From Yersinia proxima (GTDB taxonomy: Bacteria; Pseudomonadota; Gammaproteobacteria; Enterobacterales; Enterobacteriaceae), in the NCBI RefSeq assembly GCF_902170785.1, contig NZ_CABHYG010000004.1:620001-684000 (forward strand): a stretch of DNA of 64,000 nucleotides, in the 5' to 3' direction. The notes below the pieces were generated by a model. That model searched no databases. It was not told the origin of the DNA and saw only the letters and a list, made by a program, of their open reading frames with translations. A program made the translations under genes and the position numbers. Shown here piece by piece: positions 2,840 to 41,301 of this stretch (the first letter of the stretch is position 1; each line of letters opens with the position of its first letter).

Positions 2840-3754
2840 TTATGGCTTCAGTGATGATCTGGCCCATAATGCTGCACCTAACAACCCACTATCCTGCCGG
2901 TGATAAGCTGCTTGTAGCGGCACACGATAGATTGGTGGCAAGGTTTTTTGTGCGCCAATGACCCGCTCTAAATACCCCGGGGCCAACCCGACACTGCCGC
3001 CCAGAATGACCACTTCCAGATCCAGCGCCATTTTCATGTCTGCCAGCATCTGGGCAATGGCGGTCGCGGAGCGGTTAATAATGTTTTCCGCAGGAACATT
3101 GCCAAGTTGTGCTAACTCAAACACTTTGGCGGCAGTCACCGGTTGCTTCCAGCCCAAGGTTTCCGCGCCGATTGCCGTACCGGAAGCCACACTCTCGACA
3201 CACCCCTTACGACCACAACCACACAACAAACCATGAGGATCGGCCAGCGTATGACCTATGTGCCCCGCCAGTCCGTGATTACCGACCAGCAGTTTTTTAT
3301 TCAACACAATGCCGCCGCCCACTCCGGTGGAAACCGTCACAAACATCATATTGTTTATCGAAATCTCATTGTTTATCGATATCAGCTTGTCGCCATCATG
3401 ACTTAATGCCTGATATTCAGCCCAGGCTGCCGCCTGCCCATCATTAAGCAGCACACAAGGTAAATCAGCGATCGATTGGATGCATTCTTGTAACGGAAAA
3501 TCTGCTAAGCCGCCCAAATTGGCGGGATTAAGCGCGGTCAGACGGCCATCACTAATGATACCGGTTGAGGCAACAGCAATAAAATCAACCAGATGTCGAT
3601 AAGGTGTAATCAGCGTTTCCAGCGCTAGCGCCAGTTGTGCTGCCCCGCCACGTGGTGTCGCCACCTGCTGACGGCCAACCAACATACCGCTTTCAGTCAC
3701 CACCGCCGCCGCAATTTTTGTTCCACCGATATCCAGTGCCAACACTTTTCCCAT
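2840..3754 (-). CDS. nanK: N-acetylmannosamine kinase NanK (ROK family)
   Basis: ROK-family kinase that phosphorylates N-acetylmannosamine to its 6-phosphate in the cytosol. The N-terminal phosphate loop [13 protein letters not shown], the VSTGVGGG motif and the zinc-binding [21 protein letters not shown] block are all visible, and the length of 304 residues is normal with small additions. The ATG at 3754 follows GAGGG; a TTG nine bases upstream is less likely. Odd feature: an 18-bp in-frame tandem duplication (3350–3385) repeats ISINN just before the VSTGVGGG motif. Divergent from nanE. Confidence 0.93.
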
Positions 3755-3841
3755 CTGGCGCAACCCTCTTGTACCTGTAATGATGTTGATAGGATGACTA
3801 TGACAATTTTTTAGTCATAACTCCATTATTATTTCAATATT

Positions 3842-3854
3842 GGAGTAATGCTCC
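3842..3854. promoter_or_regulatory. NanR-like operator before nanK
   Basis: GGAGTAATGCTCC, an inverted repeat differing in the centre and one arm from the copy before nanT. A further ACTCC half-site lies at about 3820. Located in the 215-bp nanK–nanE divergent region about 90 bp from the nanK start. Confidence 0.5.
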
Positions 3855-3926
3855 ACAACAAACACTTTTAGACTCGATTTATGAAAGGTGACCATTGCAC
3901 CCTACAGATAAAAGATCTAACATAAC

Positions 3927-3939
3927 GGAGTAAAACTTC
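3927..3939. promoter_or_regulatory. NanR-like operator before nanE
   Basis: GGAGTAAAACTTC matches the nanT-upstream palindrome in 12 of 13 positions. It lies 30 bp before the nanE start, a position where bound protein could block transcription of nanEA. Confidence 0.5.
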
Positions 3940-3969
3940 ATTTAAAATATTCAATCGGAGCTAAAGACC

Positions 3970-4698
3970 GTGAGCAATCTAAACCTAAGCAAAACAAGTC
4001 GTCTCCGCCACCAGCTCCAGAATGGCCTTATCGCCTCGTGCCAACCCGTACCTGGCAGTGCCATGGATACACCAGAAATTGTCGCAGCAATGGCATTGGC
4101 AGCACTGGCAGGCGGCGCAGTAGGTCTGCGTGTTGAGGGCATTAGTAATATTGAAGCGGTACGTCGGGTTACTGATGCGCCAATTATCGGCATTATTAAA
4201 CGCGATCTACCCGATTCTGAAGTCAGAATTACGCCATGGCTGGAAGATGTCGATGCGTTAAGTGCTGCCGGAGCCGATATTATCGCTTTTGACGTCACCA
4301 GCCGCCCACGCCCGGTTTCAGTGGAAGATTTATTCCAGCGGGTACAGGCAACGGGCTGCCTGGCGATGGCGGATGCATCTAATATTGAAGATGGCCTGTT
4401 GGCATACCGCTTAGGTATCGACTTTATCGGCACTACATTATCCGGCTATACCCAAACCCCCGTTCCTACTGAACCGGACTTAGAACTGGTAAAACAGTTA
4501 TCCCAAGCGGGCTGTAGGGTGATTGCTGAAGGCCGATACAACTCGCCAGCACTGGCGGCGGCGGCAATATCTGCCGGTGCTTATGCCGTAACCGTCGGCT
4601 CTGCCATCACGCGTATAGAACATATTTGCGGTTGGTTCTGTGAAGCGATTCAACATGCGCCACAAGAACACGAAGCAGCAAAACTAACGAGTCGCTGA
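3970..4698 (+). CDS. nanE: N-acetylmannosamine-6-phosphate 2-epimerase NanE
   Basis: A 242-residue TIM-barrel epimerase converting ManNAc-6-phosphate to GlcNAc-6-phosphate. Typical segments are [56 protein letters not shown] and [13 protein letters not shown] followed by [16 protein letters not shown]. The start is GTG with GGAG nine bases upstream. The N-terminus has about ten residues more than the E. coli enzyme. It is followed by nanA about 80 bp later on the same strand, giving a nanEA unit divergent from nanKQ. Confidence 0.93.
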
Positions 4699-39522: not shown

Positions 39523-39557
39523 AAAAAGGTGACATGCGTAATTAATGTCACCTTTTT
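39523..39557 (+). terminator. Terminator after acrD
   Basis: AAAAAGGTGACAT (39523–39535) and ATGTCACCTTTTT (39545–39557) give a perfect 13-pair stem with a nine-base loop and a T-run. It isolates the next two genes from acrD. Confidence 0.92.
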
Positions 39558-39699
39558 ATTTAAAGTAAACCAAAGAATAATAAGCCACTATATTAATTAT
39601 ATTTTAATCACTAATTAAAAATAAAATAAAGAAAAAAGACAGTTGAGATATATTTAATCCATATCTTGACCAATTTAAAATAATCATCCATATTTATTT

Positions 39700-39719: not shown

Positions 39720-39767
39720 TAAAAACACAGCATAACATTAACCTCAAGACAGTCAGGAGATATAACT

Positions 39768-39881
39768 ATGGGTATTCTCGGCTTATTGCCAAACAAAGTG
39801 GATGAGGATGAATCTATCGAAAATAATGAACACCTTACTTGTTTAACAGAAAAGGAGTTGGCTGAACTGGAAAGTGAATAG
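39768..39881 (+). CDS. 37-residue peptide gene, candidate RiPP precursor
   Basis: Open frame of 37 codons with AGGAGA seven bases before the ATG. The first part is MGILGLLPNK, hydrophobic and starting Gly after Met, so Met would normally be removed. The rest is acidic and ends LTCLTEKELAELESE, a helix-prone stretch with one Cys. Order and composition recall the bottromycin precursor, whose core is N-terminal and whose follower is C-terminal (NNAELSALEMEELES). A YcaO-family gene follows 57 bp later behind a hairpin. No homologue could be checked. Confidence 0.62.
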   Translation: MGILGLLPNKVDEDESIENNEHLTCLTEKELAELESE

Positions 39882-39887
39882 CAGCAT

Positions 39888-39915
39888 AATTAAGGAGGCT
39901 TAGGCCTCCTTAATT
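39888..39915 (+). terminator. Hairpin between the peptide gene and ycaO-like gene
   Basis: AATTAAGGAGGC (39888–39899) and GCCTCCTTAATT (39904–39915), perfect 12-pair stem, TTAG loop, no true T-run. It starts seven bases after the peptide stop and could cause partial termination or 3'-end protection, so that more peptide than enzyme is made. Confidence 0.7.
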
Positions 39916-39938
39916 AATTATTAACAGGAGATATATTA

Positions 39939-41153
39939 ATGGGACTACCTTATGAGCGTGAAATTACATTAGCCGAAGCAAAAAAACGAATCCTGGCTGA
40001 ATTTCAGAATAACGCCATCACTCCTCACATAGAAAACCTTGGTCTACATATCATTACGACCAAATGTGATATTTATGATCAAAATAATAATTTACTCAGC
40101 CAAGGGGTGGGTAAAGGTATTGATGGTGCGGCACTAACCGGTGCTTTTTATGAAGCATTTGAACACTATATTTCAACTAATTACCAAAAATTTGGTGATA
40201 TGACATTATGTAAAACCAATAAACTGCAACATACATTGAGTGGTACTGATTTCGTTAGAGATCTGCTAGAAACTCAACCCAATACAAAAATTGCTTGTCG
40301 CCATTACAGCAATATTACCGGCGATATGTCGATTTATTACCCAGTTGCTTTTTCAACGCCAGATTACGCAGACTCCCCCCTTGAAGGAGACAGTTTCGAT
40401 TATCAGGTATTACGTCGCTATTCCAGTAACAGTGGTACAGCTATTGGTTCTTCTTTTCAGGAGGCAGCGCTACATGCCGCCAATGAAAGTATTGAACGTG
40501 AAGACTTATCACAATTTTTGATTAATTACTTTTATCAAGATAACAACCGCTCATTACGCCTGGTTAACCCTGATTCGCTACAAGAAGAGCTTCACTCCTT
40601 ATGGTTAAATGCTGAAGCAGAAATAGCAGATCACATTACAGTACTCGAAATCAGCCAATCTACAGGTTGCCGAACATTCATCGCCTTCGGTAATAGGCTC
40701 TGTCAGGCGGTACATTTATTTGGTGCAGGAACTTCCCTCTCACCTTATTACGCCATATCACGGGCAATAACAGAACTGATCCAGTTTCATTCTATCGTCG
40801 CCCGATTTCCTTACCTCATTGAGACACAAAAACATTACTTACGGCGATTAGCACAGTGGCCAAAACTACGCCGCAGTTGTGAAGCCTATCTGCCCGGATT
40901 ATTGACGGATAGAACATTGCATAGTGTCGATATTCCAGAAGATGGCCCCACTGCACCAGTCATTGAGCAATTATTACAAGTGGAACGGGAGTTAAACATG
41001 CGGGGTTACCAACTGTTGGTTAATATTCTCTATCAAAGTGCTTCCGGTTGCACTGTCGTTAATGTGTTGATCCCCGGCTTTGAGCGTTTTTTTCTTATTA
41101 ATAGCGGCAACATTGTGGTGCCTTGGATGGGTTATCAATATCAAAACAGCTAG
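39939..41153 (+). CDS. Stand-alone YcaO-family protein
   Basis: A 404-residue YcaO-type enzyme. Two family blocks are visible: GVGKGIDGAALTGAFYEAFE, and GTAIGSSFQEAALHAANESI followed by EREDLSQF, supplying the Glu/Arg residues that hold Mg-ATP. YcaO enzymes activate peptide amides with ATP to form azolines, thioamides or amidines. No cyclodehydratase partner, TfuA or dehydrogenase is nearby, and the Pro-rich C-terminus of azoline-forming members is missing (ends VPWMGYQYQNS). The Shine-Dalgarno is AGGAGA. Lower GC than acrD. The reaction and substrate are inferred. Confidence 0.82.
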   Translation: MGLPYEREITLAEAKKRILAEFQNNAITPHIENLGLHIITTKCDIYDQNNNLLSQGVGKGIDGAALTGAFYEAFEHYISTNYQKFGDMTLCKTNKLQHTLSGTDFVRDLLETQPNTKIACRHYSNITGDMSIYYPVAFSTPDYADSPLEGDSFDYQVLRRYSSNSGTAIGSSFQEAALHAANESIEREDLSQFLINYFYQDNNRSLRLVNPDSLQEELHSLWLNAEAEIADHITVLEISQSTGCRTFIAFGNRLCQAVHLFGAGTSLSPYYAISRAITELIQFHSIVARFPYLIETQKHYLRRLAQWPKLRRSCEAYLPGLLTDRTLHSVDIPEDGPTAPVIEQLLQVERELNMRGYQLLVNILYQSASGCTVVNVLIPGFERFFLINSGNIVVPWMGYQYQNS

Positions 41154-41193
41154 CGATAATGGGCTAAGAGTAAAGCGACAGATAACCAATAAA

Positions 41194-41223
41194 AAAGGCA
41201 GGAACGATGACGTTTCTGCCTTT
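41194..41223 (+). terminator. Terminator after the ycaO-like gene
   Basis: AAAGGCAGGAACG and CGTTTCTGCCTTT (41194–41206 and 41211–41223) form a 13-pair stem with one G-U pair, loop ATGA. An A-run before and T-run after suit both strands, so ypfM may share it. Confidence 0.85.
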
Positions 41224-41301
41224 CTGCGGACGATAACCCGCCCCTGGTTATATATCAATAAAACAATAAAAGATAACAACTCCGACTACTGGTTTATTCG
41301 C

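Follow-up and report, generated by a model that had tools for sequence, protein, structure and literature searches.

Genetic organization of the locus in Yersinia proxima

The window, that is, the whole stretch of 64,000 nucleotides of Yersinia proxima DNA under analysis, carries a short gene and a gene for a stand-alone YcaO enzyme, which follow one another between acrD and a gene on the opposite strand that we take, from its sequence, to be ypfM (Table 1). The product of the short gene reads MGILGLLPNKVDEDESIENNEHLTCLTEKELAELESE, and a gap of 57 bp separates this gene from ycaO. The enzyme matches the profile PF02624 with 88.1 bits over residues 58-382 (cut-off 25.7), and its matches to the YcaO models of NCBIfam all fall below their cut-offs. 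Taken together, the open reading frames, the AGGAG located 8 nt from the ATG and the profile match bear out the starting point of the preliminary description, namely a short gene with a ribosome-binding site ahead of a stand-alone YcaO. An AlphaFold2 model of the enzyme, for which three relatives entered the alignment, reached a pLDDT of 31 and a pTM of 0.23 and was set aside.

Table 1. Features of the peptide gene-ycaO locus, in window coordinates.
Feature	Position	Strand	Basis
Inverted repeat flanked by runs of A and T, immediately 3' of acrD; terminator-like by eye	39523..39562	+	Sequence
Ribosome-binding site of the peptide gene, AGGAG, 8 nt 5' of ATG	39755..39759	+	Sequence; score 5 in 6/6 Yersinia A copies
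Precursor peptide gene, 37 codons	39768..39881	+	ORF reading; conservation; dN/dS about 0.05
Proposed core region MGILGLLPNK (Met1 removed)	39768..39797	+	Identical in 6/6 copies; Met-Gly across lineages
Proposed follower recognition motif LTEKELAEL	39843..39869	+	Motif comparison
Hairpin between peptide gene and ycaO, 13-bp stem, 4-nt loop; proposed attenuator	39887..39916	+	Stem paired in 6/6
Ribosome-binding site of ycaO, AGGAG	39926..39930	+	Sequence
Stand-alone YcaO enzyme, 404 aa	39939..41153	+	PF02624; family alignment
Inverted repeat 3' of ycaO	41191..41224	+	Like the repeat directly after acrD in the empty site of G006

The upstream neighbour was recognized as acrD by the model NF007842 (2204 bits). 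The window and four of the five other carriers of a close relative of the enzyme have acrD on one side of the pair and ypfM on the other; in G002, G005, G007 and G023 the two genes lie 1798-1929 bp apart with the pair inside, and in the carrier G004 the contig ends before acrD and comprises the ypfM side only. In 12 of the 19 Yersinia genomes devoid of the pair (the stretches fetched from the other seven held neither gene), acrD and ypfM are only 160-461 bp apart, in agreement with the earlier proposal that the pair is inserted between them. The insert has a G+C content of 38%, compared with 50% for acrD. In the pair-less genome G006 the order is acrD, inverted repeat, ypfM, and a like repeat follows ycaO in the window; hence the pair, judged from this comparison, seems to have its insertion point between acrD and the downstream repeat. 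None of the three named repeats (after acrD, intergenic, after ycaO) was among the sites of a promoter and terminator scan, which returned four promoter-like sites (6.3 in shuffles) and two terminator-like sites (1.4 in shuffles), and the labels 'terminator-like' and 'attenuator' are our reading of the repeats. In G005, ABC-transporter-like genes (by eye) lie between ypfM and a TPR gene (L057, 5656-9683); they are absent from the window, and thus the stretch past ypfM varies among Yersinia species. AcrD had also been considered as exporter of the product, a guess from adjacency that was dropped because no acrD adjoins the pair in the Yersinia B stretch or in the other opened loci described below.

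Conservation of the pair within Yersinia

A search for the enzyme in 25 Yersinia genomes yielded eight matches, six of them close (78-100% identity, hereafter Yersinia A; close relatives occur in the named species Y. artesiana, Y. thracica and Y. aleksiciae) and two distant (Yersinia B). The peptide gene is present in all six genomes with a close YcaO, at 92-100% identity, and in none of the 19 others. Compared with the window copy, the other five carriers encode peptides that are 92-100% identical and enzymes that are 78-94% identical. Across the 15 pairs of Yersinia A peptide genes, dN amounts to 0-0.07 and dS to 0.10-0.82, resulting in a dN/dS of 0-0.16 (about 0.05), and the enzyme shows a dN/dS of 0.07-0.14. 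The first ten peptide residues are identical in all six copies, and the pair of Y. aleksiciae (L013) has this MGILGLLPNK core; at residue 24, the Thr of the window peptide is replaced by Asn in G005. The preliminary description had asked whether this YcaO occurs in other genomes without the small gene and whether the peptide drifts freely while the enzyme is conserved, and within this group the occurrence in six of six carriers and in none of 19 non-carriers contradicts the former, as the peptide identity and the low dN/dS contradict the latter. Since occurrence is so strictly linked and the peptide dN/dS is low in spite of the dS reached, it is well supported that the small gene does not lie beside ycaO by chance and that the two genes form a genuine unit, inherited together.

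In Yersinia B (G009 and G017) a YcaO of 36-37% identity is encoded at another locus, preceded by a gene for the peptide MGYMVSFNANPVN...HLTHSETEALKDDE, which contains no Cys. A methyltransferase gene is situated 3' of ycaO in the stretch of G009, and G017 possesses one that is 91% identical.

From folding of the native sequences, an intergenic hairpin is predicted in five lineages, i.e., Yersinia A, Yersinia B, Pantoea, G1122 (a member of another enterobacterial genus) and Streptomyces. No hairpin of note was predicted in the gaps of Vibrio and Mycobacteroides, and the Nonomuraea locus has no gap. The 13-bp stem of Yersinia A is paired in all six copies, both partners of one base pair having changed, and a 5-bp outer extension of the stem is broken in some copies. 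Attenuators 3' of precursor genes have been described for RiPP operons (PMC7113386).

Relatives in other genera

A tblastn search for plasmids with a family YcaO retrieved 11 records, six of which were opened (Pantoea, Nonomuraea, Streptomyces, two Vibrio and Mycobacteroides); H1, H3 (scores as H2), H7 (97% identical to H6), H10 and H11 (59% coverage) were left out. A short open reading frame starting with Met-Gly lies just 5' of ycaO in all six opened loci, including that of Nonomuraea, which is without gene annotation and in which the peptide frame overlaps ycaO by 14 nt. In G1122, the enzyme is 30% identical and the upstream frame reads MGYMNCMYTNDYEENEVVSEEKTTEGVIESKLSQDEIDAINA; two shorter in-frame starts are also present there, and the longest start has GGAG ahead. 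A more divergent relative in G474 is 30% identical over 268 of 404 residues.

Among the broad genome samples, which overlap one another, the order sample contained the enzyme in one of 394 genomes (the window genome itself; E 1e-10) and the class sample in two of 369 (the window genome and G474; E 1e-15). At least one of 398 genomes of the phylum sample (the window genome; profile search, E 1e-25) and at least four of 392 of the family sample (the window genome, G005, G017 and G1122; E 1e-10) had it, and relatives may have been missed in these two samples, as only four candidates were scored for many of their genomes. Viral contigs and phages yielded no YcaO relative. One of the plasmid records left out, CP060162.1 (H3), is labelled Acinetobacter venetianus, and its YcaO (264329-265510) has scores equal to those of two Pantoea plasmids, pointing either to plasmid sharing or to a mislabelled record.

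In a tree of 17 rows made up of the family, G474, TfuA-type and E. coli-type enzymes, with the bottromycin and streptamidine YcaOs outside the set, the family and G474 lie together on one side of a branch (support 95/92) that separates them from the rows of the TfuA type and of the E. coli type. The tree gives no firm order within the family and long branches make placements unsure; with G474 placed inside, the Met-Gly rows alone do not form one clade (two changes, compared with one change in 4% of the bootstrap trees). A profile of the family matched five distinct sequences in the PDB, namely MJ1094 (E 5.9e-19), MusD (E 1.1e-10), TruD, LynD and a chain named YcaO.

Architecture of the precursor peptides

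The feature common to nearly all of these loci is the Met-Gly start, found in the open reading frame upstream of ycaO at 15 of 16 family loci. Fourteen of these belong to the 15 loci tallied first (six Yersinia A, two Yersinia B, six plasmid loci and G474), G1122 having been added later, and the exception is G474. There, the divergent YcaO gene (L061, 1608-2792, minus strand) lacks a Met-Gly peptide, the frame overlapping its start reads MSLSITPFDF..., and the gene lies between two similar histidine-kinase-like genes (by eye; 249-1586 and 3026-4342). At four other YcaO loci, i.e., three TfuA-type loci (opened out of 172 records) and the second YcaO of the window genome, no Met-Gly frame was found. 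In 13 of 14 loci of Yersinia A, Yersinia B and the plasmids, the Met-Gly frame has the best ribosome-binding score upstream; in Streptomyces this score was tied and the nearer, annotated Met-Gly frame was chosen. As background, 231 of 3509 ATG frames of 25-75 aa (6.6%), and 66 of the 457 with a good site, start with Met-Gly, counts that are inflated by family copies and nested starts.

A second recurring element is situated towards the C-terminus. The motif L-[TS]-x-x-E-x-x-x-[LI] and the Met-Gly start had both been recorded before the G1122 locus was opened, and this later case possesses both. In the slightly looser form [LIV][TS]..E...[LIVMF], the motif occurs in five of the first eight peptides (the two Vibrio peptides taken separately), with a shuffle P of 1.4e-6 obtained post hoc on the same set; with G1122 included and Vibrio counted once, six of eight lineages have it. 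The peptides of Vibrio, which are not acidic, and of Mycobacteroides lack the motif. The follower of bottromycin contains the stretch LSALEMEEL, which fits L-[ST]-x-x-E-x-x-x-L, and the pattern is similar to that of a helix capping box, so that convergence is possible. Of the C-terminal resemblance to bottromycin noted at the outset, this shared pattern is what remains, and it could have arisen independently.

On the contrary, the part that follows Met-Gly differs between most lineages. It does not appear free to vary everywhere, given that MGY is common to Yersinia B, Pantoea and G1122 and MGxKRSEIN to the two Vibrio peptides. At position 6, five of eight lineages have Ser, Thr or Cys (P 0.0035 for column 6, 0.043 for any column), and the window peptide contains none of these residues before position 16. 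A variable stretch behind a persisting Met-Gly, combined with a mostly persisting C-terminal motif, is what a precursor with its core N-terminal and its recognition follower C-terminal would be expected to show, and this arrangement is probable judging by the peptides compared.

Comparison with known YcaO-dependent systems

With bottromycin the Yersinia pair shares the Met-Gly start and a stand-alone YcaO, and its putative N-terminal core and C-terminal follower, placed by sequence, would agree with the bottromycin layout as well. It differs in that a single YcaO adjoins the peptide gene instead of two stand-alone enzymes in the bottromycin cluster, and in that radical-SAM methyltransferases, an amidohydrolase, a P450 and an M17 peptidase are all absent between acrD and ypfM. 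The bottromycin precursor model NF033414 found no match at E up to 10 in the window genome (G000), G007, G002 and G1122; its one match in G009 (13.8 bits, cut-off 40) lies at another place than the pair. Moreover, in a search of nine family peptides against NCBIfam, eight matched no family and the Streptomyces peptide gave one unrelated weak match. The layout suggested in the preliminary description recurs in unrelated genera, with Met-Gly first, a variable N-terminal part and a C-terminal motif resembling a helix start. Membership in the bottromycin family is not supported: the pair may be called bottromycin-like for its layout, but not a bottromycin.

Streptamidine (ami) is likewise a small YcaO-dependent RiPP with an amidine formed by the N-terminal amine and with precursors that are not rich in Ser, Thr or Cys, but its core lies inside the precursor, with a leader and a follower on either side, whereas the Yersinia peptide starts at the proposed core; it also depends on AmiB, on a hydrolase and a dehydrogenase, and on fec-like genes, and no partner gene is located beside the Yersinia pair. 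The family is reported from Actinobacteria and Firmicutes (for all points on streptamidine, see PMC8442711). Klebsazolicin (klp) provides a YcaO-made N-terminal amidine in an enterobacterium, but is distinguished by its leader peptide, the partners klpC and klpB, azoles and an exporter (PMC7136475).

In the case of TfuA-associated thioamidation, a small gene 5' of ycaO is a common trait; the differences are the TfuA neighbour, upstream genes that start with MS, MK and MA at the three loci opened, and the position on another branch of the tree. A search of the window genome for TfuA gave no match. The E. coli YcaO, which thioamidates uL16, shares the YcaO domain and the absence of TfuA; the window genome has a separate and better PF02624 match (249 bits) about 470 kb from the pair, which is taken as the E. 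coli type, has no small open reading frame of peptide size upstream and is the only other YcaO of that genome. As far as its available part shows, a survey of enterobacterial clusters with Yersinia genomes (PMC9125672) mentions YcaO only for E. coli-type clusters. In the literature within scope, to which most subscription journals do not belong, no description of the Yersinia pair or of a Met-Gly YcaO family was found, a comparison that leaves out the PMC8442711 data sets, among which some actinobacterial members could be present.

Proposed modification and alternative readings

The small gene and the YcaO very probably represent a RiPP precursor and its enzyme. As the best explanation we propose that the two genes amount to a minimal RiPP system, one whose precursor carries the core at its N-terminus and the follower at its C-terminus and whose YcaO forms an N-terminal amidine via the Gly amine; we hold this proposal to be evenly poised between right and wrong. 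Gene pairing and peptide layout are well supported; Met removal, follower recognition, amidine formation, cleavage, export and function we infer as follows. The small gene would encode a precursor whose core is N-terminal and whose acidic C-terminal part serves as a follower recognized by YcaO. Host methionine aminopeptidase, which acts where the second residue is small, would take off Met1 and leave a free Gly amine. Subsequently, YcaO with ATP would activate a backbone amide of the core, and attack by the Gly amine would yield the N-terminal amidine, or a macroamidine if, as in bottromycin, the attacked amide is some residues away from the N-terminus. The intergenic hairpin may keep the level of the enzyme below that of the precursor, and the follower would be removed by host proteases; for the role of the putative product, an exported or signalling peptide is our tentative preference.

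For bottromycin, a YcaO is proposed to activate the Val4-Val5 amide for attack by the Gly1 amine (PMC5103208), and the amidines of bottromycin, klebsazolicin and streptamidine all use the N-terminal amine (PMC8442711, PMC5103208, PMC7136475); YcaOs that draw the amine from elsewhere than the N-terminus are known as well (PMC12338566). The MGP start of bottromycin needs a special Met peptidase (PMC5103208), and because residue 3 is never Pro in the family peptides read, a peptidase of this type would not be required here. The bottromycin amidine enzyme is described as working with an amidohydrolase (PMC5103208) or alone (PMC8442711, PMC7136475), and no amidohydrolase lies beside the Yersinia pair.

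The lack of Ser, Thr and Cys before residue 16 means that an azoline cannot form in the window core, which leaves an amidine or a thioamide as likely there; for the amidine as product of the window pair the balance is about even. That YcaO instead thioamidates the backbone of the N-terminal core, with no help from TfuA, is unlikely. Such a reaction does not require Ser, Thr or Cys either, uL16 is thioamidated by the YcaO of E. coli, which has no TfuA (PMC13063428), MJ1094 is the best of the five PDB matches, and methan_mark_1 of NCBIfam matches far below its cut-off; the window genome, for its part, is without TfuA, though E. coli manages without, the family is set off in the tree from both the TfuA-type and the E. 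coli-type enzymes, albeit on long branches, and a thioamide gives no reason for the near-universal Met-Gly. A similarly low probability attaches to azolines, formed at residue 6 in other lineages and at Thr24, Cys25, Thr27 (or Ser16) in the window peptide. In those other lineages, the frequency of Ser, Thr or Cys at residue 6 and the SagB/ThcOx-type oxidase that the Streptomyces locus adds make azoline chemistry possible, and the SagD profile matches below its cut-off. Apart from the composition of the window core, the missing Cys in Yersinia B, the exchange of Thr24 in G005 and the lack of an E1-like partner beside the gene speak against it. The proline-rich PxPxP end that marks azoline-forming YcaOs (PMC8442711, PMC12338566) is found in the last 35 residues of none of 11 aligned family enzymes, which weighs little, since the amidine enzyme AmiD is proline-rich as well (PMC8442711). 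Furthermore, an azoline at residue 6 would use the carbonyl of residue 5, as a bottromycin-like ring would, so that the azoline and amidine readings are close.

Two further readings are far less probable. The short frame could be a regulatory leader, with translation and hairpin controlling ycaO and the enzyme acting on another substrate, as the predicted hairpin behind it in five lineages might suggest; this is highly improbable in view of the strong purifying selection on the peptide residues, the absence of a run of one codon and the recurrence of Met-Gly and the C-terminal motif in other genera. It is equally hard to credit that YcaO, either as its sole activity or in addition to cyclization, cleaves the peptide by a hydrolysis that depends on ATP: MusD, a YcaO that cuts in this way (PMC10885120), is the second PDB match and the pair includes no protease gene, but the match to MusD spans the common fold only and offers no residue-level support.

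Going beyond the window, the amidine reading may tentatively be extended to a separate class of YcaO RiPPs in Pseudomonadota and Actinomycetota with a minimum of two genes, in which YcaO alone would cyclize a Met-Gly precursor whose core precedes its follower. The Gly amine would attack the amide before residue 6 to give an N-terminal macroamidine, either directly, as in the window, or via an azoline at Ser, Thr or Cys6, as in other lineages, with an extra methyltransferase, oxidase or transporter depending on the lineage.

Significance

From its sequence, the Yersinia cassette appears to make a chemically modified peptide. RiPPs with a YcaO-made amidine ring are few, two having been characterized before PMC8442711 (2021), which adds one. 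If the amidine reading is true, the two-gene system would be smaller than the three known amidine RiPP systems and enterobacterial, and a single short peptide would make it possible to test how one enzyme fold selects among amidine, azoline and thioamide. The occurrence of relatives in two phyla strengthens the layout, and the same type of pair with a Met-Gly start in such distant bacteria suggests that a family of peptide natural products has gone unnoticed. The signature of Met-Gly plus follower constitutes a search rule for stand-alone YcaO clusters with unannotated tiny precursor genes.

Neighbouring genes at the related loci

Where they can be aligned, the methyltransferases found in Yersinia B, Pantoea and G1122 share 34-40% identity, and a search of the six Yersinia A genomes gave no match to them. 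The Vibrio locus adds an ABC transporter. In Mycobacteroides, a gene overlapping the end of ycaO (L025, 7139-8128) has no Pfam match at E up to 0.01 and is followed by a gene for an MFS transporter. Two genes 3' of the ycaO of Pantoea eucrina, a gene for a FeeM-type N-acyl amino acid synthase (L020, 8247-9035; PF21926, 92.6 bits) is possibly part of the cluster.
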